From the NCBI GenBank assembly GCA_903903985.1, contig CAIVAT010000057.1, positions 62,001-126,000 on the forward strand: a stretch of DNA of 64,000 nucleotides, written 5' to 3'. Source of the stretch: an uncultured Bacteroidales bacterium. GTDB taxonomy: Bacteria > Bacteroidota > Bacteroidia > Bacteroidales > FEN-979. The notes below the pieces were generated by a model. That model did not search any database. It was not told the DNA's origin and saw only the letters and a program-made list of their open reading frames with translations. Shown in pieces: positions 7,565-38,949 of the stretch. The position numbers were made by a program, and so were the translations under genes. How positions within the stretch are numbered: the stretch's first letter is position 1; each line of letters opens with the position of its first letter.

Positions 7565-8602
7565 TTAGTTATCCCGGATGCATCTTACGGATAAACCGGT
7601 CGTTTTGGCGATGGTGGCAACCATCACAACTACCGGTTTTTTATTCAGGTAAAAACTTTGAGCATGGTCGGCATCCGTTTCCGTTGATGACCACCATTGA
7701 CAATCCTTATCCCGGGCCGAAAATCCTTCTTTCAGCTTTTCCGCAGCGAGCTCTTCCCCTCCCAGGGAATTGAAAAGCGATGTCCACGCCCCACTGGTTG
7801 GAACATGCCAGCCAGCCGGGCAAAGGCTCCGGTTGTCACTGATCACATACCAGTTATAAGATTCTCCCTTCCCTGAAACATCCCCGGTCATTCCGAAAAT
7901 TTCAGAACCGTCGCGAAAGCGTGTTGTCTTCAGGTCCTCCGCCATCCATACCTGTCCGCCGAGTGCGAGGGTTCGATAGATGTTTCCATCGATGTCAGTT
8001 ACTGAATCGCGTAACTTTGAAAATGTCCGGTCGTTGATCGTTTTCAGGGATGAATTGGGTTTTAGTGCATATTCATTCAGTTTGATTACGTTCCTGTCAT
8101 AGAGTTCCCGGTTTCCCCTGACCGGGATTTCTGTTTTTGATGCGATGATCCCACCGGTTGCAAGACCAATGGCTGTCGAAATGAGAGCCGGTAAGATCCC
8201 CAGTAAACCGCCCCCCTTCAGATATTCTTCTGTCGTCATCGATTTTGTGAGGCTTTTCGAATATGCAGCAGATATAGCGCAGCCAACAACAATTCCCGAC
8301 ACCCCCCCGGCGAGGATTGCAAACCCCTTTCCCTTTCTTCTGACATTGATCTCATCGATGTTCCTGATATCAACCGTGGTCACATCAAAATTGTTATCGT
8401 AATAATCCTTTTTCCAGGGAGAATTTGAGACAATCACCGACGAGTCTTTTACCTCATACAACACCCCCGAAATTACTTTTTTGCCCTTGACCGGCATGAT
8501 CCAGGCCTTATAAAACTTATTCAGAACAATTGAATCTTTTTGCGCCTGTGAGGAACAGGTGACGAACAGGATAAAAACCAGAAATAACATCAGTGTTTTC
8601 AT
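7565..8602 (-). CDS. Secreted FISUMP-domain protein
   Basis: About 345 residues if translation starts at the Met at 8602. I chose that start because it is followed by a good signal peptide (KTLMLFLVFILFVTCSSQAQ); the longer open frame back to 8818 has no secretion signal. The mid-region holds two glycine-rich hydrophobic stretches (for example GGVSGIVVGCAISAA) that could be membrane-inserting. From about residue 200 to the end is a FISUMP domain (IDGNIYRTLALGGQVWMAEDL, CPAGWHVPTSGAW, CQWWSST, LSVRCIRD), a C-type-lectin-like extracellular module with no known catalytic function. Two further FISUMP proteins lie at 10833 and 15805, and the domain of the 15805 protein is the closer match. Confidence 0.8.
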   Translation of the reverse strand: MKTLMLFLVFILFVTCSSQAQKDSIVLNKFYKAWIMPVKGKKVISGVLYEVKDSSVIVSNSPWKKDYYDNNFDVTTVDIRNIDEINVRRKGKGFAILAGGVSGIVVGCAISAAYSKSLTKSMTTEEYLKGGGLLGILPALISTAIGLATGGIIASKTEIPVRGNRELYDRNVIKLNEYALKPNSSLKTINDRTFSKLRDSVTDIDGNIYRTLALGGQVWMAEDLKTTRFRDGSEIFGMTGDVSGKGESYNWYVISDNRSLCPAGWHVPTSGAWTSLFNSLGGEELAAEKLKEGFSARDKDCQWWSSTETDADHAQSFYLNKKPVVVMVATIAKTTGLSVRCIRDN

Positions 8603-8869
8603 ACTTTCAATTTTTAGCGGGTAAATTTCAAAACCCAATCCAAAAATAGGAGCCGATGGGTTCTTCCCAATACGGAATTCAAAATCATCTTTGAAGGTTC
8701 TTGCAATATTTGAGATCGGGACAAGCAGCAAGCCGGCTTTTTTATAACAAAAAGCCATTTTCAGCATCCATCCCCTTTTATTATTGATTTCTGCAAGATT
8801 AAATCCTGAGAATTGCAAATAATGCCAGAGAAAGGAGGTCCCCGGTTTTTTTCTTCCGGGAAACCCGGT

Positions 8870-11871: not shown

Positions 11872-12501
11872 TTATTGTAACGCATCATCCGTTTTTCTGT
11901 TAGTTTCTTTAAAGCTGGCGATAACCTGCCATGCATCCTGATGGGCAAAGAGGTCCATTGGCCGCACGATATTCCCTTCGAGAAAGTTTTGAAAAACAAA
12001 CGGGATGTCGGGTGGATGATCTCTTTTCGTCAGCGTTTGTGTGTAAACCCAGCAGATCAGCCCCGTACAATAAAACATTTCATCCGAATTACGGAAATCA
12101 AAACTGTATGGGAGTCCAACCAGGGTTGAAGCCTGCTTACCTGCGTTGTTCATGATATCCCGGCAGCAGAAACGGGGTTTTAAAACAACGAAATCATCAA
12201 CGGTAGAGAAAAAGGTTTCCAGGGTGTTCATACGCACCCCTTTCCCGGTCGCTTCAATGATATAACCCGGAGAGGTCACCAATGCCGAGTGGGTCCAGTA
12301 CCCCGGAATAAACAAGGTCGAAAATTCGTACCTCTTATGTGTCAGGATCACCATCCCGGGTTGTAAATGCCCTTTAACCGGATCTATTTGTTCATAGGAA
12401 CAGCGGAAAGGCCTGCCAAAACGCCAGTTGATGCGGTTGATCATTTTGGAGACCGGCAGGCAAAACAACAGGAATATGGACAACACCGAAGATCGCACCA
12501 T
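11872..12501 (-). CDS. YiiX/permuted NlpC-P60-type cysteine hydrolase
   Basis: 209 residues with an N-terminal hydrophobic anchor or signal (SVLSIFLLFCLPV). The pattern is that of the circularly permuted papain-like YiiX/YebB family: LQPGMVILTHKR, then GYWTHSALV (His71), IIEATGKGV (Glu83) and later MFYCTGLICWVY (Cys145), which supply the presumed His, polar residue and Cys nucleophile. Family members are thought to cleave amide or thioester bonds in peptidoglycan or lipidated substrates, but few have been tested. The gene lies 14 bp downstream of the Lgt-like gene and 34 bp upstream of the FISUMP lipoprotein, suggesting co-expression and a shared envelope role. Confidence 0.7.
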   Translation of the reverse strand: MVRSSVLSIFLLFCLPVSKMINRINWRFGRPFRCSYEQIDPVKGHLQPGMVILTHKRYEFSTLFIPGYWTHSALVTSPGYIIEATGKGVRMNTLETFFSTVDDFVVLKPRFCCRDIMNNAGKQASTLVGLPYSFDFRNSDEMFYCTGLICWVYTQTLTKRDHPPDIPFVFQNFLEGNIVRPMDLFAHQDAWQVIASFKETNRKTDDALQ

Positions 12502-12515
12502 GTGATGTAAGTTTT

Positions 12516-13556
12516 TTACGGTGATTCATCATCCCTCTGAAGACCGGGCAGTTTGAGCCTGATCCCGTCTTTGGTGACAATGACGGACATTCTCAGGATC
12601 GTAAAGACGAGCACCGGCAACAGGAACAACAGGATCAGTGACATTTCGACCGGGGTAAACCAGTTTCGTCCGGAATAGGCCACAACGGTAAAAAAAACCA
12701 CCATCACAACCTGCCGGGATGCCGGCATGCGCATTTGCTTGATTATCAACAAATCATGATCCTGTCTTTTCTCCCGTCCGATCAGGAAAATCAGTCCTGT
12801 GACCATCACGGCCATGATCACCCATTGGATGGTCTTTAATCCGGAATAATCCTGTGCCATGACGAAACTCGATTCGGGCGCACGCACAAATTCAACCAGG
12901 AACCGGAGCATCGCATAACACAATACTGAAAAAAGGAAAAGGCTGCCGCTGGCGCTCCACCTGTTGCGTGTTTTCCACACGAGAAATGCGATCAGGAGAC
13001 AACCCAGGATTTCATAGACCTGGACCGGGTGTATCAAAGCCGACGCGGTATCATGCGGGTGCAGCAGGCCATGCATCATGTGGACATGACAGGCAATGGA
13101 TGATGATCCGTAATGAATACCCCAGGGCACATTTGCAGGGGTGCCGAAGCAGCACCCTGCCATCAGGCACCCGATGCGTGAGATGGCCATGGCAACCGGC
13201 AGCGCGATCGCGAAATTATCAACGACAGGCCGGTAAAAACGAAACCATGTCTTTCCCAGGATCAACCCGGCAGACAGCCCGAGAATTCCTCCCAGGATCG
13301 TTTTTTTCCCGGTTCGCGGAAGTTGAAAATCGGTGAAAACCTGCATCCATTGACCCGGTGAATAGGTGGCTACCTTTTCACCGATGATGAAAAACATGCC
13401 TCCGGCCATCATCAGCAAAAGCCAGGGAAATTTCGGATAGCCCATTCTGACCCCGGCATAAAATCCCATTGCCGCAGCTATCAAAATCGCCGCCATGTAA
13501 GAAATTGAATAATAAATTTCCCCGTGGGTTGTGTCGATGATGAAAAGTGTTTCCAT
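12516..13556 (-). CDS. Lgt-like polytopic membrane protein, catalytic residues altered
   Basis: 346 residues. I placed the start at the Met at 13556 because it aligns with the start of the paralogue at 18135 (METLFIIDTTHGE versus MKTMMIIETTHGG). The protein has the multi-span layout of prolipoprotein diacylglyceryl transferase. Conserved are HPVQVYE and YAMLRFLVEFVR, matching the C-terminal Arg and Glu signature of Lgt. Two hallmark sites differ: the HGG loop reads LGG (His replaced by Leu88), and the R-x-x-N..NGE signature reads SRIGCLMAGCCFG (Arg127 kept, Asn replaced by Cys). It is therefore unlikely to be the housekeeping Lgt. It may transfer a different group, or bind lipids or lipoproteins. 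Confidence 0.75.
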   Translation of the reverse strand: METLFIIDTTHGEIYYSISYMAAILIAAAMGFYAGVRMGYPKFPWLLLMMAGGMFFIIGEKVATYSPGQWMQVFTDFQLPRTGKKTILGGILGLSAGLILGKTWFRFYRPVVDNFAIALPVAMAISRIGCLMAGCCFGTPANVPWGIHYGSSSIACHVHMMHGLLHPHDTASALIHPVQVYEILGCLLIAFLVWKTRNRWSASGSLFLFSVLCYAMLRFLVEFVRAPESSFVMAQDYSGLKTIQWVIMAVMVTGLIFLIGREKRQDHDLLIIKQMRMPASRQVVMVVFFTVVAYSGRNWFTPVEMSLILLFLLPVLVFTILRMSVIVTKDGIRLKLPGLQRDDESP

Positions 13557-13602
13557 ACACATCGGGCTTTCAGGAATGGAATTCTAATGATGAATATCCC
13601 AT

Positions 13603-15081
13603 TTAGTTTTTAATAAATTTCCCGACCCTTTCTTCTTTAACATTGCCCATCCTGATAAAATACATTCCCACCGGGAGGGAGCCGACATTGAAATCAATCC
13701 TGGAACCTTGCAGTTGCTGCCGGATCATTTCACGCCCATCCATACTATAAATAATAACGGTACTGGTTGTATTGCTTGATGGTTTGGGCAGTTCAACAGA
13801 TATATTCTCGCTGGCCGGATTTGGGAAAACAACAAGAGACCCTTTGCCGGGGAATAACCCTGCAATGCCGGTAATAAAAGAAGTGTATGTCGCTTCATAC
13901 CGGTAAATCTCCCATAAAGTGCCTGTAATTTGTTTTTGAGAATAAAGCTTTGGATACCCCATGCCGGGTTGCCAGGTTCCTGTTTGCCATTCTTCATATT
14001 TTCCGGTTGCAGAGTTCCCGTTCGAATCGTAGGTATAAGTGTATCTCTGGTTGTTTACCCATGCGCCGGATACCCATACTTCATTTAAATCAGCAAGCAT
14101 GTTCCCGGCCGCATCACATGAATAAGTATTTCTCGAAAAATTCACCCATGCGTTTGACTGCCATAGTTCAGATAAATAATTAATCAGGTTTCCGTTCGAA
14201 TCGTAAGCATAAGTATCTTTCTTGTAGTTTTCCCAGGTATTGTTTCCCCATAATTCCCCAGTTCCCGTCACCAGGTTTCCGAATGCATCGTAAATCCAAG
14301 TAGATTTGTAGGCGTTAATCCAGGCATTGGTTTGCCAGTCTTCTTCAATCAATAACAACATCTTTCCGCCCGCATCGTAGGTATAAGCAACCCGGTAATA
14401 GTTCGCCCAGGTATTGGCTTGCCCGGTTTCACCTAATTCGGTCAGCATATTCCCATTTGCATCATAGGTGTAATTATATCTCCGGTAATTCTGCCAGGCA
14501 TTTGATTGCCATCTTTCATAGATCTCGGTCAGCAGGTTTCCATTCGCATCATAGGTGTAAGTGTATCTTCTGTCATTCACCCAACCGGGGAAGCCCCACC
14601 ATTCATAGAGCTCAGTCAGCAGGTTTCCGTTTGAATCGTAGGTGCAGGAATTCCTGGAATTATTCACCCACTCGTAGCCATCCCAACTCTTCCCTAATCC
14701 AGTCAGCATATTTCCATTTGCATCGTAGGTATAAGTGGATTTATAGACGTTAACCCAGGCATTGGCCTGCCACTGGTCTGTCAACGCAGTTAAAACGTTG
14801 CCCCGGAAATCGAATGTCCGGGTGTTCCTTTCCGGGATCCCCAATGTATCATACGTGAACAGGGTATCCCAATTCCAGGTTTCCGCCCGGGGACTGATCA
14901 GGTGTGCCATTCCAGCAGGAACGGTCAGCCCCTCACCGCCGGAATAATGCGTTTGCATTGACCTGGCGGCATGTTCCCTGGTATTTACGGGACGGTGATT
15001 GTTTGTTGCTTGCTGCCATTGTGCGGATACAACAGCTACAAGGCACATAAAAGCGACCGAGAAACAGATAACTTTTTTCAT
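13603..15081 (-). CDS. YD-like repeat surface protein with T9SS sorting domain
   Basis: 492 residues. A signal peptide (KKVICFSVAFMCLVAVVSAQ) leads to ten tandem 29-residue repeats at residues 89-378 with consensus TYDxNGNxLTEL...W..NAWVN...YTY, related to RHS/YD repeats. A type A T9SS C-terminal domain follows (VVFPNPASENISVELP ... LPVGMYFIRM ... VGKFIKN), predicting export by T9SS and attachment to the cell surface. The repeats should build an extended beta structure, so adhesion is plausible; no enzymatic domain is seen. An unusually strong ribosome-binding site precedes it. It lies in the same minus-strand block as the two Lgt-like genes. Confidence 0.8.
   Translation of the reverse strand: MKKVICFSVAFMCLVAVVSAQWQQATNNHRPVNTREHAARSMQTHYSGGEGLTVPAGMAHLISPRAETWNWDTLFTYDTLGIPERNTRTFDFRGNVLTALTDQWQANAWVNVYKSTYTYDANGNMLTGLGKSWDGYEWVNNSRNSCTYDSNGNLLTELYEWWGFPGWVNDRRYTYTYDANGNLLTEIYERWQSNAWQNYRRYNYTYDANGNMLTELGETGQANTWANYYRVAYTYDAGGKMLLLIEEDWQTNAWINAYKSTWIYDAFGNLVTGTGELWGNNTWENYKKDTYAYDSNGNLINYLSELWQSNAWVNFSRNTYSCDAAGNMLADLNEVWVSGAWVNNQRYTYTYDSNGNSATGKYEEWQTGTWQPGMGYPKLYSQKQITGTLWEIYRYEATYTSFITGIAGLFPGKGSLVVFPNPASENISVELPKPSSNTTSTVIIYSMDGREMIRQQLQGSRIDFNVGSLPVGMYFIRMGNVKEERVGKFIKN
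13948..14817 (-). repeat. Ten tandem 87-bp coding repeats
   Basis: These encode the ten 29-residue YD-like units of the surface protein. The units are divergent at DNA level but share the codons for YD.NGN and W. The regular period makes the locus prone to expansion or contraction and to misassembly. Confidence 0.8.
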
Positions 15082-15144: not shown

Positions 15145-15774
15145 CTAATAGAAACTGTACCCAAAACTCATTCCCACCCATGGAATGAAAGAACTGGTTG
15201 TTTCGAGTTGCCGGTAACCCGTTCTGTTTTCAATAATATTCGTCAGTTCTATAAGAGGCGTAAACCCAAACCGGAACAGGAACCCTTTTTTCTTCTGAAA
15301 GCGAATCCCGGCAAAACAGGTGAGGAGCGGGTCAACAAAAAATCCGCTTTCATTGATGGTGTTGCGGGAAAAAGCCACTCCTTCACTGGTATAATCCTGC
15401 CAAAAAGTGAAGGTGGTGTTGACCCCGAAACCTATTTCAAGCAGAAATACATCAGATACCTGGTACAACCCGTTTACCAGGGCAAGTATGCCAATCGTAT
15501 TGATTGTCGGAGGTGTATAGCCTGCACCGATTCTCCCGGTTATATAAAAACGCTCTTTGTGAATAATCATTTTTTCATAATTTAATGAAATGACATTCAA
15601 ATGTCCGGCCAATTCAAGATAAAAGCTTTGCGTGGGAATTCTCCTGTATGAATTATTTGTTTTTGTGAATGCGATTGGCAAAGTCAAATCGATGGTGTCC
15701 TGGTATTGTCCGGAAGTTCCATTAATCATAAGGTTCAGGATGAAAAACAAGAGGACTCTTTTCATGATTTTCAA
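15145..15774 (-). CDS. Probable outer-membrane beta-barrel protein
   Basis: 209 residues, or 206 from the alternative Met at 15765. A signal peptide (KRVLLFFILNLMINGTSGQ) is followed by alternating amphipathic strands (FYITGRIGAGYTPP, VFLLEIGFGVNTTFTF, GFLFRFGFTPLIELT) and a C-terminus ending in aromatic residues (WVGMSFGYSFY), as in Bacteroidota outer-membrane barrels. No specific family is recognised. The gene lies 30 bp downstream of the Lgt/FISUMP fusion and 63 bp upstream of the repeat surface protein, so it is probably part of the same transcript. Confidence 0.6.
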   Translation of the reverse strand: MKIMKRVLLFFILNLMINGTSGQYQDTIDLTLPIAFTKTNNSYRRIPTQSFYLELAGHLNVISLNYEKMIIHKERFYITGRIGAGYTPPTINTIGILALVNGLYQVSDVFLLEIGFGVNTTFTFWQDYTSEGVAFSRNTINESGFFVDPLLTCFAGIRFQKKKGFLFRFGFTPLIELTNIIENRTGYRQLETTSSFIPWVGMSFGYSFY

Positions 15775-15804: not shown

Positions 15805-18135
15805 TTAATAATCCCTGAGACATCTCACCAATGAACCGGCATTTTTGTCAATACCGGTAAGCATGATAACATCAGTCATGTTGTCCAGGTAAAAGCATTT
15901 GGATGTTTTTGGATCCTCTTCCGTCGACGACCACCACTGGCAGGATTTTTCATTGTCGGAAAAGCTTTCCTTCAGTGCGTTTACAGCATGGGATACCCCT
16001 CCCAGGGAGTTGATCAGCGAGGTCCATTCGCCTGCAGAGGGAACATGCCAGCCGGAAGGACAAATTTTGCTGCTGTCGATCACGGCTTTCCAACGGTACA
16101 GGGTTCCAGATTCCGGGCCGGTGGTGGTCACCCCTGCAATTCTCGACCCGTTTTTATATCGCAACGTCCTGAGATCCTCCGCCATCCATACCTGGCCTCC
16201 AATGGCAAGGGTATGATACACATTGCCATCAATATCGGATAATACATTCTTAAGTTTCGTAAATGTTCCGGCAGGCAATCCCGGAATCATTTTTGTTGAA
16301 TAATCATTCGGTGTGGTTTTGATTTCCTCAAGAAACCGGAAATGAGCGCCGAATAAAAAAACTCTTTTCCCATCCTCCCCTGTTTGCAGATTATCCCCGT
16401 AAAACGCTTCCAGCACCACTATGTTTTTGATTGGAATGGCGCATTGTGCATAAATCCCTTCGTGGCAATATCCGGCGCCGAGTTTGGTCCCGTCAGTCTT
16501 TCCCAAGCCGGTTCCAATGCCTGCCTGAAAAAGCGGATACGGTGTTGCGGAAGGAAAAAGACCAGGAAACGTTGCTTCTGCATAAAGGATATCAATGGGT
16601 CCCGCCCTGACCGATACCGATGGGAGACAATAGACATTGATATAATCCGGCGATACGATGTCTCCGTCATTAAAATGATCATAGGAGGATGCCGGCCGTT
16701 GAGCAAGAAATTTTGACTGCCCCAGCAGAAGGCCGGTTTTGAATCCAAAATTCTGCCAGTCCATGCCAAGATACGGACTGACCCCGGCTGAGATTTGCGA
16801 GTGCGGATAGTCCGTTACTACTCCGCCGGATTCAAATCCCAGGAACGCCCTGGCGCCAATGGTATACTTGTAGTATTTCCCTTTCCAGACATTATGTGAA
16901 ATATCCAGCCCTGCCTGGTAAAAAGTTTTTTTCTGGGTTCCGACAGGCTCTAAATGCACATCCGTACCACAGGGATGGCTTGTTTTAACGGCCCTGGAAA
17001 TATCTTCATAATAGGTGCCGAACAGGCCTGTTATTCCTGCATCGGTAAAAATGGCTGTCTCTCCCTCCTTCAGCGAAGGAATACTTCTTTGTGCCATGAA
17101 ACCGGCACTGCATGCCAACATCACCGGAACAACCCATCTGAATCCCGGAACAGAGACCATTCGATTGGCATGAATGGCCATGTTCATCAGGACGGGCATC
17201 AGGAACAGGAATATTGTCAGGGTTTCGACCACGGTAAACCAATGCCTGCCCAAGAAAAGCAGAACAAGCAAAAAGATTGTCAGCATGACCTGGCGCAGCT
17301 GCGACACAGGATCAGGTTGTGTAACCATTGAGATTTTTTCTGCTTTTGATTCCCTGTAAATAAGGAGGAAGAGTACGGGCACCCATGCACAGATGATCAT
17401 CCATTGAATGATCTTCAATCCCAGGAAAAACAACCCGGTGTGGAAATTGGTTTCAGGTGCGCGGACAAATTCAACTACAAAACGCAAAGCCCCATAGCAC
17501 AATACCGAAAACAGGAACATGCTGCCTTCAGACCGCCAGTATTTCCTGCTTCTCCAAACGACGAACGCAATAACGACACATCCTACGACCTGGTAGAGCT
17601 GAGCCGGATGGACGGCCAGCGATAACGCGTCGTGGGAATGAACCAGTCCCCGCACTGATTGAACATGGTATGCCCATGAGGTTGAATCATATTGAACACC
17701 CCATGGTAAATTTGTCGGGGTGCCGAAACAGCATCCGGCAAACAGGCATCCGATGCGCGAGATCGCCATGGCCAGCGGCAACGCAACCGAAATGGTGTCG
17801 AAAACCGACCAGTTGAACCGCAGGCAGGCTTTAGCTAAAATCAGGCCGGCGACCAATCCTGCAATACCTCCCAAAACAGACTTTTTATCCGCAACCGGAA
17901 AACAGAACCGGGTAAACACCTGTCCCCATTGTTCCGGGGTATAGGTGAGCGCCTTGTTCCCGATGACAAAAAACATCACTCCAGTGGCAATGATCAACAG
18001 CCAGCTGCCCAGCGGATACCCTTTTTTCATCCCCTGAATAATCACGATGGCTCCGGCCACTAAAAAGGCAGCCATGTAGGTGAGCGAAAACAGCAGCCCG
18101 CCATGCGTTGTTTCAATTATCATCATTGTTTTCAT
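15805..18135 (-). CDS. Lgt-like / beta-rich / FISUMP three-part fusion
   Basis: 776 residues from the Met at 18135, a start chosen by alignment with the stand-alone paralogue at 13556. Residues about 1-325 are an Lgt-like polytopic domain with the same altered signatures (LGG instead of HGG; SRIGCLFAGCCFG; HPAQLYQ; YGALRFVVEFVR). At residue 326 an internal Met begins a segment that itself looks like a signal peptide (FRWVVPVMLACSAGFMAQ). Residues about 350-620 are beta-rich and barrel-like (YTIGARAFLGFESGG, GVSPYLGMDWQNFGFKTG, VFLFGAHFRF). Residues about 630-776 are a FISUMP domain (SDIDGNVYHTLAIGGQVWMAEDL, CPSGWHVPSAGEW, CQWWSST, LVRCLRD). The frame is unbroken. An inner-membrane domain joined to an outer-membrane-like one is topologically odd, so recent gene fusion or internal initiation at 17160 is possible. 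Confidence 0.75.
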   Translation of the reverse strand: MKTMMIIETTHGGLLFSLTYMAAFLVAGAIVIIQGMKKGYPLGSWLLIIATGVMFFVIGNKALTYTPEQWGQVFTRFCFPVADKKSVLGGIAGLVAGLILAKACLRFNWSVFDTISVALPLAMAISRIGCLFAGCCFGTPTNLPWGVQYDSTSWAYHVQSVRGLVHSHDALSLAVHPAQLYQVVGCVVIAFVVWRSRKYWRSEGSMFLFSVLCYGALRFVVEFVRAPETNFHTGLFFLGLKIIQWMIICAWVPVLFLLIYRESKAEKISMVTQPDPVSQLRQVMLTIFLLVLLFLGRHWFTVVETLTIFLFLMPVLMNMAIHANRMVSVPGFRWVVPVMLACSAGFMAQRSIPSLKEGETAIFTDAGITGLFGTYYEDISRAVKTSHPCGTDVHLEPVGTQKKTFYQAGLDISHNVWKGKYYKYTIGARAFLGFESGGVVTDYPHSQISAGVSPYLGMDWQNFGFKTGLLLGQSKFLAQRPASSYDHFNDGDIVSPDYINVYCLPSVSVRAGPIDILYAEATFPGLFPSATPYPLFQAGIGTGLGKTDGTKLGAGYCHEGIYAQCAIPIKNIVVLEAFYGDNLQTGEDGKRVFLFGAHFRFLEEIKTTPNDYSTKMIPGLPAGTFTKLKNVLSDIDGNVYHTLAIGGQVWMAEDLRTLRYKNGSRIAGVTTTGPESGTLYRWKAVIDSSKICPSGWHVPSAGEWTSLINSLGGVSHAVNALKESFSDNEKSCQWWSSTEEDPKTSKCFYLDNMTDVIMLTGIDKNAGSLVRCLRDY

Positions 18136-18159
18136 TGCCTGCATTTTTTATTGAAAATG

Positions 18160-36291: not shown

Positions 36292-36618
36292 TTTGATCAT
36301 GGTTAACACCATCTTGAACTTTTCCAACGCGTTGACCGCGTGTGGAATTCCGGCAGGCATGATGATGGCTTCGCCGCTGGTTAAAATAAACTGCACTTCG
36401 TTGATAATTACTTCCGCTTTCCCTTCAATGACCTGCAGCATGGCGTCGTAAGGTGCTGAGTGTGTGCTCAGGCGCTGCCCCTTGTCGAAAGAGAATAACG
36501 TAACCGTTCCAACAGGGCGGTCAATCACCCGTTTACTGATGATCCCCTCGGATGAATAGTCTACTTTTTCCGGGAACCGGAACACGTTTGAGTGTTCAAA
36601 AATGCTTTTTTCCATCAT
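36286..36618 (-). CDS. Cupin domain protein
   Basis: 110 residues, a single small cupin barrel: HSAPYDAMLQVIEGKAEVII (first cupin motif with the metal-binding His) and GEAIIMPAGIPHAVNA (second motif with PxGxxH). Small cupins of this type accompany nitric-oxide reductase and DUF438 genes in several Bacteroidota and are thought to bind metal, but have no assigned reaction. The last codons lie inside a duplicated 31-bp hairpin repeat. It lies about 85 bp after the NO reductase gene, where inverted heptad repeats fill the gap. Confidence 0.88.
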   Translation of the reverse strand: MMEKSIFEHSNVFRFPEKVDYSSEGIISKRVIDRPVGTVTLFSFDKGQRLSTHSAPYDAMLQVIEGKAEVIINEVQFILTSGEAIIMPAGIPHAVNALEKFKMVLTMIKG

Positions 36619-36641
36619 AGTTAGATTTACATTAAAGTATC

Positions 36642-36697
36642 AAAGTGTAAAGTGAAAAATCCTGAAATCCTTTAGTATTTCCGCACTTTGCACTTTC
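36642..36697. repeat. Inverted heptad repeats upstream of the qNOR gene end
   Basis: aaagtgtaaagtga at 36642-36655 faces gcactttgcactttc at 36683-36697, forming a long imperfect hairpin in the cupin/qNOR intergenic space. It could attenuate transcription between the genes. Confidence 0.5.
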
Positions 36698-36702
36698 AAT
36701 TT

Positions 36703-38949
36703 TTATTTTTTAACGACAGACCATCCGCCTTTTAATCCAAAAATAAACCATGCCAGGGCAAGAGACCCTGCTGCAAAAACGGTATCGCCGATCACCCTGA
36801 GCCAGCGGAAAAATAAAATGGTAGGATCCTGCAAGAATTCGGCTGATCGCGCATACCACATCCCGGTTCGCACACTTACCCAGGTTTGTACCAGTCCAAC
36901 AGGCAAAACACTGATGAAAACCATCAGCGCAAGCCCTATGTTGATTGCCCAGAAAGCAAATTTGACCCACTTTTCATTCCAACTTTTCTCTGGCTCCATG
37001 CTCTTTAAAACAAAAAGCATCAGTCCGATCCCAAGCATTCCATAAACACCAAACAACGCAGTATGGCCATGGACCGGGGTCGTGTTCAACCCCTGCATGT
37101 AATACAAGGCGATCGGCGGGTTGATCAGGAATCCGAAAATTCCGGCGCCTACCAAATTCCAGAAAGCAACCGAAAGGAAAAAATAGATTGGCCATTTATA
37201 TCCAGAGATCCAATTCCTCTTTTGCGATATCTTAAAATTCCCATAGCCTTCAAATCCCATCAGGACGAGCGGAACCACCTCCAGGGCACTGAAGGTTGCC
37301 CCAAGAGCCAAGACGGCCGTTGGGGTTCCAGTAAAATACAGGTGATGAAATGTTCCCAGGATTCCACCTGAAAGAAATACGATGGTAGAAATAAGCACGC
37401 TTGCGGTGGCAGTCGCTATCCGGACCAGGCCAAGGCGCACAAACAGGAAGGCAATGGCCACGGTGGCAAAGACTTCGAAAAACCCTTCCACCCAGAGATG
37501 TACGACCCACCATCGCCAGTATTCCGCGATTGCAAGATTTGTCTGCCGGCCCCACATCAAACCGGCGCCATAAAATGCTGCAATGGCTATAGTTGAAATT
37601 AAAAACATGGTCAGTAATGATTTATTCTCCGATTTCGCCTTCAAAGCTGGCATCAGTCCCCGTGCCATTAAGACCAGCCAGATGATTAGACCAACAAACA
37701 GAAACAGTTGCCAGAACCTGCCCAGATCAACATATTCATACCCCTGGTGACCGAACCAGAAATTGGTAACCAATCCCAGGCGCTGCATTACACCAAACCA
37801 TTGGCCAATGAGCGAACCTGCCACAATTACCAGCAGGGCGACAAACAAGAAGTTCACTCCAAGAGCCTGGAATTTCGGTTCTTTTCCCGAAACAGCAGGG
37901 GCAAGATACAACCCTGTTGCCAGCCATGACGTTGCAATCCAGAAAATAGCCAGCTGGATATGCCATGTCCGCGAAATGGAATAGGGAAGCAGTCCCGAAA
38001 GCGGTAATCCGTAAAATGCCTGTCCTTCGACACCATAATGCGCGGTGATCACCCCCATCAGGATCTGAACAAGAATCAGGGCTGTTACAACCCAGAAATA
38101 CTTTAAGGTAGCTTTCATCGAAGGCGTAAAAATGCCTCCCAGCAATGGATCTATTGCTGGAATTTCACTTTCTGCGAGTTGGTCCTCTTTCCGTGAAGCA
38201 TAATACCAACCCATGAGGCCGATCCCGGCAATAAGCATGATCACACTGAAACCCGTCCAAAGGATCAGTGAACTAGTCGGCTTATTATCTACCAGTTCCT
38301 CGGAAGGCCAGTTGTTGGTATATGATATCTCGCTGTCGGGCCGGTTTGTAACACAGGCCCATGAGATCCAGAAAAAGAAGGCATTCATCTTGCTCATACG
38401 CCCCGGGTCTTTAATGGAATTGGGGGGTATTGCATATGCATCGCGCAGTTTATCCAATTTCGGATCGGCCATAAATAACCCGGCGTAATGTTCACCAACA
38501 GCCTTGATGGCTTGCGCCCGAAGCGGGGAAACAACAATTTTCCCGGAGGTGACATCATAGGTGTTGATTCGCAGTTCATGCTGTAACCGGATTTTCAACA
38601 TTGCTTTTTGTTCGGCTGTGACATCTGCAAAAGCTTTGTGGTAAGAAGTATCGGCAAGGTAGTTCAGGATATACTCCGATTCGCGGTGCAACCAATCAGC
38701 CGACCAGTCGGGAGCTACATAGGAACCATGTCCCCATACTGTTCCAACTTCTTGCCCGCCAATCGATTGCCAGATGTTTTGACCATCTTTAACGTCTTGC
38801 CCTGAAAAAAGCACGACACCCTCCGTGGTCACTACCTCTGATGGAATCGGCGGTGCCTGTTTGTAAATCTCCCGTCCATAATAGATCAGGACGGAGAAAG
38901 AAATCGTCATCACGGCGATAAAGCTGAACCATAGTTTTCTTGTTTGCAT
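36703..38949 (-). CDS. norZ: Quinol-dependent nitric oxide reductase (single subunit)
   Basis: 748 residues, the length of qNOR (NorZ/NorB-type) enzymes that reduce two NO to N2O in the cytoplasmic membrane using quinol. The N-terminal helix and a periplasmic cytochrome-c-like domain without heme motif (LFSGQDVKDGQNIWQSIGGQEVG) replace NorC. The rest is a heme-copper-oxidase-like bundle of 12-13 helices with the expected His ligands in RTWHIQLAIFW, WWVVHLWVEGFFEVFA, GTFHHLYFTG and PVHGHTALFG. The conserved Glu in VEGFFE near the Fe-B site is present. Upstream lie the Rrf2 regulator and ferredoxin, supporting NO-responsive control. Confidence 0.95.
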   Translation of the reverse strand: MQTRKLWFSFIAVMTISFSVLIYYGREIYKQAPPIPSEVVTTEGVVLFSGQDVKDGQNIWQSIGGQEVGTVWGHGSYVAPDWSADWLHRESEYILNYLADTSYHKAFADVTAEQKAMLKIRLQHELRINTYDVTSGKIVVSPLRAQAIKAVGEHYAGLFMADPKLDKLRDAYAIPPNSIKDPGRMSKMNAFFFWISWACVTNRPDSEISYTNNWPSEELVDNKPTSSLILWTGFSVIMLIAGIGLMGWYYASRKEDQLAESEIPAIDPLLGGIFTPSMKATLKYFWVVTALILVQILMGVITAHYGVEGQAFYGLPLSGLLPYSISRTWHIQLAIFWIATSWLATGLYLAPAVSGKEPKFQALGVNFLFVALLVIVAGSLIGQWFGVMQRLGLVTNFWFGHQGYEYVDLGRFWQLFLFVGLIIWLVLMARGLMPALKAKSENKSLLTMFLISTIAIAAFYGAGLMWGRQTNLAIAEYWRWWVVHLWVEGFFEVFATVAIAFLFVRLGLVRIATATASVLISTIVFLSGGILGTFHHLYFTGTPTAVLALGATFSALEVVPLVLMGFEGYGNFKISQKRNWISGYKWPIYFFLSVAFWNLVGAGIFGFLINPPIALYYMQGLNTTPVHGHTALFGVYGMLGIGLMLFVLKSMEPEKSWNEKWVKFAFWAINIGLALMVFISVLPVGLVQTWVSVRTGMWYARSAEFLQDPTILFFRWLRVIGDTVFAAGSLALAWFIFGLKGGWSVVKK

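Follow-up and report, generated by a model that had tools for sequence, protein, structure and literature searches.

An Lgt-like domain, a predicted beta-barrel and a FISUMP module share one open reading frame

The window analyzed here is a 64,000-nucleotide stretch of one contig from an uncultured Bacteroidales bacterium, whose genome is represented by a 5.2-Mb assembly of 195 contigs that is 87% complete. On its minus strand, an Lgt-like domain, a signal-peptide-like hydrophobic segment, a domain resembling outer-membrane barrels and a FISUMP module follow one another in a single frame; this arrangement had been proposed in a sequence-only reading of the window, and open reading frame calling, Pfam and structure prediction agree on it. 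The Lgt-like part and the barrel were found in one frame in 24 proteins, the window protein included, from Bacteroidota of at least two orders. This set, on which all counts out of 24 are based, comprises the 16 proteins of alignment A4 together with L179, L090, L190 and L193-L197. Excluded before counting were the unfused paralog, the stand-alone L056, the broken or truncated sequences from G026 (L028), G311, G358, G041 and G024, and L041, a 156-aa Lgt-like fragment of G002. The features of the locus are as follows.

15805-18144, minus strand: whole open reading frame, 779 aa from the first ATG, stop codon included
18133-18135, minus strand: Met4, the likely start codon, given that homologs begin at the Met at 18135
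17356-18090, minus strand: Lgt-like domain, residues 19-263 (Pfam LGT and Foldseek; seven long helices in the model)
17155-17301, minus strand: two additional helices, residues 282-298 and 305-330 (AlphaFold2 model and positive-inside charge pattern)
17158-17160, minus strand: Met329, the internal Met of the sequence-only reading, not conserved
17092-17148, minus strand: last hydrophobic segment, residues 333-351 (helix 338-351), the proposed internal signal peptide
17089-17091, minus strand: Gln352, proposed first residue after cleavage by signal peptidase I (column Gln in 23/24)
16309-17091, minus strand: predicted beta-barrel domain, residues 352-612, 12 predicted strands (AlphaFold2 and VIA-align)
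16969-16971, minus strand: Cys392, in the predicted turn between strands 1 and 2, kept in 24/24
15808-16263, minus strand: FISUMP module, residues 628-779 (Pfam and TIGR02145)
12516-13562, minus strand: unfused paralog, 348 aa, with the Lgt-like domain and the two extra helices, without the barrel and the Gln site
11872-12501, minus strand: Peptidase_C92 (YaeF/YiiX) gene, 14 bases downstream of the paralog

Two further genes on the minus strand lie between the two Lgt-like genes. One (15145-15774) encodes a small protein with barrel-like sequence and an apparent signal peptide that ends in Gly-Gln, for which neither Pfam nor NCBIfam returned a family; the other (13603-15081) encodes a protein with RHS/YD-like repeats that carries a C-terminal type IX secretion signal.

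Family searches returned matches for both ends of the window protein. Pfam LGT (PF01790) covered residues 19-263 (E 2e-24; 86.7 bits against a gathering cut-off of 24.9) and Pfam Fib_succ_major (FISUMP, PF09603) covered residues 647-721 (E 2.3e-20; 74.1 bits against 33.9), the latter joined by TIGR02145 with a score of 92.3 against a cut-off of 41.65. The middle matched no family in Pfam or NCBIfam and was predicted to be a barrel. The AlphaFold2 model of the whole chain (28 rows; mean pLDDT 82, pTM 0.57) contains nine long helices (16-41, 45-65, 90-108, 115-136, 181-202, 208-228, 245-267, 282-298 and 305-330) followed by a short helix at 338-351, strands between residues 363 and 606 and, last, the FISUMP module. 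When this model was submitted to Foldseek, the top solved match was E. coli Lgt (5azb, E 1.5e-5), and four FadL chains and one Legionella porin made up the remaining matches with E values of 0.001 or lower. Lys and Arg accounted for 0.16-0.31 per residue in the presumed cytoplasmic loops and 0.01-0.12 in the presumed periplasmic ones, a pattern that puts the barrel on the periplasmic side.

The Lgt-like part is of a cysteine-bearing type

Despite the clear Pfam match, scores for the NCBIfam Lgt equivalogs fell below their cut-offs (TIGR00544, 61.5 against 118.9; NF000778, 63.2 against 334). We mapped residues to E. coli Lgt through a phmmer alignment that starts after helix 1, took the residue roles from the available text of PMC13251419 and PMC4728403, and counted over 25 proteins, namely the 24 fused proteins and the unfused paralog. 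Three cysteines of the signature motif are invariant.

17746-17748, minus strand: Cys133, at the place of Asn146 of E. coli Lgt; Cys in 25/25
17728-17733, minus strand: Cys138-Cys139, at the place of Glu151-Leu152 of E. coli Lgt; 25/25

The equivalents of Gly154 and Arg239 are each kept in 25/25 and that of Arg143 is Arg in 16/25, the window protein among them. The His103 equivalent, on the other hand, is never His (Leu in 20, Ile in 2, Ser in 1, Met in 1 and a gap in 1). According to the available text of PMC13251419, Tyr, Trp or Phe is found at the His103 place in some Lgt, and Cys at Asn146 with Cys or Asp at Glu151 is recorded for distant Lgt proteins, the examples of the Cys type being Leptospira Lgt and M. 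smegmatis MSMEG_5408 (both N146C). The same text states that the Leptospira protein with Cys at 146 partly replaces E. coli Lgt and restores E. coli morphology, and it describes the activity of Cys-type Lgt-like proteins as unsettled. Cys at this place thus need not abolish Lgt activity, which speaks against a changed activity of the part studied here. We found such proteins in records of many phyla. Given the residue replacements, and since the same genome has two genes with canonical-type Lgt motifs at other places, a canonical Lgt activity of this part appears disfavored; we infer that it acts on a lipid or a thiol.

A conserved Gln follows the last hydrophobic segment

The sequence-only reading had proposed a signal peptide starting at 17160, that is, Met329 and the hydrophobic stretch 333-351. 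The stretch is indeed conserved among the fused proteins, whereas the Met is present in 1/24 only. The N-terminus that signal peptidase I creates in Bacteroidetes is usually Gln, a preference known as the Q-rule (available text of PMC5837995). The Gln352 column holds Gln in 23/24 proteins, the exception being L090 with Thr, and the combination expected from the Q-rule, a small residue (Ala, Ser or Gly) and Gln after a hydrophobic core, was found in 22/24, as L194 has Asn before the Gln. A small-Gln site is also carried by L028, the broken or cut copy in G026 that was left out of the count. L090 (5893-7758 of a distant Bacteroidia record) is without the cut-site Gln, yet keeps Cys392 and the GCC motif.

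We also compared how often Ala, Ser or Gly followed by Gln occurs in 464 kb of the same genome: of 76 exported candidates, chosen by simple rules, 43 have the pair after the N-terminal hydrophobic core, as opposed to 12/234 polytopic helix ends and 126/1480 random stretches. A weight matrix trained on the 43 N-terminal sites gave mixed support for cleavage, which we counted mainly against it. The site of the window protein scored 1.5 (third among 594 positions) and so fell short of the 10th percentile of real signal peptides (7.7; median 12.9). It also has Phe at position -3, a residue found there in 8/24 fused proteins, among them the window protein and its four nearest relatives, but in none of the 43 N-terminal sites (0/43); in both respects it is unlike the N-terminal signal peptides of this genome. 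The best positions in 32 polytopic controls had a median of 6.0, a 90th percentile of 10.6 and a maximum of 13.9, and the proposed site was top-scoring in 8/24 fused proteins, or in 4/24 with the Gln column ignored, so most sites of the family do not stand out. For six orthologs the score fell within the range that real signal peptides span (L025, 12.7; L197, 13.8; L047, 14.4; L179, 15.4; L054, 15.7; L052, 20.2), the last four of them above the control maximum.

Phe at -3 and the weak matrix score in this clade argue against efficient cutting. They also favor the alternative that the chain stays whole, with the last helix serving as an ordinary anchor and the barrel-like domain remaining tethered in the periplasm or at membrane contact sites, and so does the prediction of 338-351 as a normal helix. 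We consider this alternative unlikely, though worth keeping in view. In favor of cutting, the last helix has only 14 residues and model confidence falls below 50 at 352-356. The periplasm is usually 20 nm or more in width, and the linker from the last helix to the first strand has 11 residues (352-362), or about 4 nm when fully stretched; for a barrel located in the outer membrane, this linker is too short and the chain must be cut. An intact chain that bridges the envelope, as suggested in the sequence-only reading, is unlikely for the same reason. Further arguments against a whole chain are that the domain is structurally most similar to membrane barrels and that the small residue and Gln are kept in 22/24 proteins despite a mean barrel identity of 22%. 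On balance, we regard cutting at Gln352 as more probable than not for the family and are less sure of it for the clade of the window protein.

The middle domain probably folds as a barrel of the outer-membrane type

Searches with 16 isolated barrels gave four Pfam families, each in one member, and no NCBIfam family. The best of the four was PagL (PF09411, E 0.0027); Pfam did not find it in the window barrel, and with one weak match among 16 barrels we did not adopt a PagL-type assignment. Modeled alone with AlphaFold2 (16 rows; pLDDT 83, pTM 0.76), the barrel has 12 strands. The best VIA-align match was the NalP translocator (Z 13.7, rmsd 4.3, 191 residues aligned), followed mostly by autotransporter barrels and porins, and the prediction thus carries both marks of an outer-membrane barrel, an even strand number (12) and a match to solved barrels. 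PagL, PagP and LpxR were not named among the best 50 VIA-align matches listed, which excludes none of them, and Foldseek TM-scores were low (0.42 or less by query length among the matches listed). These matches are a resemblance of fold at approximately 10% identity and do not bear on function. In the region that extends from the last helix through the whole barrel, the columns kept in at least 21/24 proteins are Gln352 (23), Cys392 (24) and six glycines (21-23), Cys392 being the only residue kept in all 24. The model puts this cysteine at the predicted tip of the hairpin of strands 1 and 2, a turn that would form the first surface loop.

A second alternative, which we hold to be improbable and place behind a whole chain, is that the middle domain is a soluble or lipid-binding periplasmic beta-barrel that provides the Lgt-like part with a lid or a lipid carrier. 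Two soluble barrel proteins do rank further down among the VIA-align matches (4tq2, Z 9.1; 3bdr, Z 8.7), and the C-terminal beta-signal expected in the last 45 residues is not universal, the strict pattern being found in 10/24 proteins and the loose one in 18/24. Against this stand the twelve strands, two of them 29 residues long, and ranks 1-17 of the VIA-align list, all of which are outer-membrane barrels (Z 11.6-13.7). From the models, a barrel of the outer-membrane type is the likely identity of the middle domain, and we infer its location in the outer membrane.

The fused frame is old and an internal start is disfavored

The sequence-only reading had also raised the possibility of a second product from an internal Met, by which translation starting at Met329 (17160) would give the secreted part its own N-terminal signal peptide. 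Met329 does precede the hydrophobic stretch, and a Met stands one residue beyond this position in L050 and two beyond it in L194, but the position is Met in 1/24 fused proteins and Arg or Asn in the four nearest relatives. As judged by the presence of Met, a second start is therefore not the shared mechanism, and we think it very unlikely.

The distribution of the fused frame was assessed at several taxonomic levels. A search of 120 relatives with the whole protein matched both parts in G013, G036, G030, G002 and G111, the two reported stops of G002 falling beyond the end of its 617-aa fused frame; G079 and G117 also carry the barrel on closer reading, G117 being interrupted by a contig end. 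Across the order, a barrel-only model found matches in 13/393 genomes, own genome included. Of 13 matches outside the own genome, 11 belonged to frames 527-630 aa long; the remaining two sat in short frames, one in G311 (218 aa; a scripted scan of this locus found no frame with an Lgt motif) and one in G358 (132 aa, where a contig starts). At E 1e-35 or better, the model for the Lgt-like part gave 14 matches in 11/393 genomes of the order; 13 of these, all but the paralog in the window, belonged to frames 527-780 aa long. A class-wide search (345 genomes) added G596, in whose order 5/148 genomes hold 6 loci, all in one genus of which at least one genome (G502) is without the fusion. Relatives of genus g225 have assemblies of few contigs and may therefore be cultured. 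At the phylum level, the barrel alone matched in 2/395 genomes, namely the own genome and G578 with the weak stand-alone relative L056 (E 4.7e-5; profile comparison probability 90 over 111 columns). Three near relatives, L057-L059, carry the name Bacteroidales bacterium in their records.

The Lgt-like and barrel parts (mean identity 33% and 22%, respectively) have correlated pairwise distances (Mantel r 0.79, 0/5000 permutations as high, shared descent uncorrected), and such correlated divergence fits joint inheritance of the halves. Together with the 23 other fused proteins it speaks against the recent fusion of two genes that had been offered as an explanation. The presence of the frame in 23 other proteins also means that it is not a chance reading, and from architecture and conservation we are nearly certain that the Lgt-barrel joint is old and conserved. 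A false or recent joining of two or three separate genes, whether by an assembly error or by an indel, was raised from the sequence alone. Though compatible with a fragmented assembly and with broken copies elsewhere (for example, in G311 and G026), it has practically no chance of being correct, since the same fusion was sought in other genomes and found in 23 further proteins, with G013 carrying the three-part frame over residues 3-778 (55% identity), and hence the FISUMP joint, and 22 others sharing the two-part frame.

Two different fused copies are present in each of G377, G392 and G1156, in the last case in tandem (C16:34549-36300 and 36542-38368). Broken or truncated copies were seen in relatives (L049 in G311, L028 in G026 and L041 in G002), which suggests that the fused gene is sometimes lost.

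The FISUMP module is attached in 2/24 fused proteins, those of the window and of G013, and is a late addition to the Lgt-barrel frame. In G036, a separate FISUMP gene begins 73 bases past the stop of the fused gene. Searching the own genome with the full protein gave 34 matches, 30 of which were FISUMP matches other than the protein itself, several of them of a compact variant (e.g. window 7568-8818).

The unfused paralog is 49% identical to residues 3-340 of the window protein. In the tree it is the sister of a group formed by the window protein and L021-L024 (support 1.0), and the group containing it sits among other fused proteins, with deeper supports of 0.57-0.95; loss of the barrel would be the simplest account. 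Among 17 neighborhoods, several of them cut by contig ends, a Peptidase_C92 gene was found near an Lgt-like gene in three: next to the paralog here, and close to the fused gene in G381 (adjacent) and in G013 (downstream). This recurrence suggests a functional pair.

A working model and its relation to known systems

Taking these results together, we propose a conserved two-product precursor, cut before Gln352 into an inner-membrane Lgt-like part and an outer-membrane barrel, a reading that we find marginally probable as a whole. Its basis is computational and consists of the frame, its conservation, the predicted barrel fold, the correlated halves and the small-Gln site. According to this model, the Lgt-like part would insert in the inner membrane through the seven Lgt helices and two more, with the N-terminus outside as in Lgt, and the last short helix would enter the translocon as an internal signal peptide. 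Signal peptidase I would then cut before Gln352, and the freed C-terminal part would cross the periplasm and fold in the outer membrane as a 12-strand barrel. The FISUMP module of the window species and G013, placed at the C-terminus of the barrel, would be periplasmic because the strand number is even. One gene for both parts would fix their ratio, as may be expected if a lipid-handling enzyme of the inner membrane works with a partner in the outer membrane. For the function, our unproven working model pairs an inner-membrane enzyme that handles lipids or thiols with an outer-membrane barrel. To our knowledge, an inner-membrane enzyme and an outer-membrane barrel made from one chain are rare in bacteria. 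If the internal site is cut, the locus would provide a natural two-membrane polyprotein with a cut site directly testable from comparative data, as well as a partner for Cys-type Lgt-like proteins and a hint at their chemistry.

A more specific version, which we regard as a long shot, is that the precursor unites an enzyme with its own substrate. The Lgt-like part, with its three invariant signature-motif cysteines, would transfer a lipid or other group to Cys392 at a stage when the barrel remains tethered to the inner membrane, and signal peptidase would then free the modified barrel to the outer membrane. If true, this would be a surface beta-barrel covalently modified by a fused, self-dedicated enzyme.

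We found no report of an Lgt-barrel fusion among open-license papers judged by titles and abstract starts, and the precursor proposed here resembles known systems in part. It shares with Lgt (PF01790; 5azb) the top Foldseek match, the domain score and the Arg239 and Gly154 equivalents in 25/25 proteins, but differs in being without His103, in the cysteines at the Asn146 and Glu151 places, in the extra helices and in the C-terminal barrel. The distant Cys-type Lgt of Leptospira and MSMEG_5408 share the Cys at the Asn146 place, whereas no barrel is mentioned for them in the available text of PMC13251419. In the Lipocone superfamily, YfiM-Griddle and YfiM-DUF2279 similarly combine a lipid-enzyme-like domain with an outer-membrane beta-barrel, by fusion or by linkage in an operon; YfiM, however, belongs to another superfamily, its enzyme is placed in the outer membrane, and the available text of PMC12419801 mentions no internal cleavage site. 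The C-terminal module scores above both cut-offs of FISUMP proteins (PF09603, TIGR02145), but differs from other FISUMP proteins in being a compact variant on a barrel, 53% identical to the module of window 7568-8818. Finally, the Bradyrhizobium FbcH cytochrome b/c1 precursor likewise joins a polytopic inner-membrane protein, an internal signal peptide and an exported protein in one chain that is cut in two. The exported half of FbcH stays at the inner membrane, whereas the exported half described here is predicted for the outer membrane.
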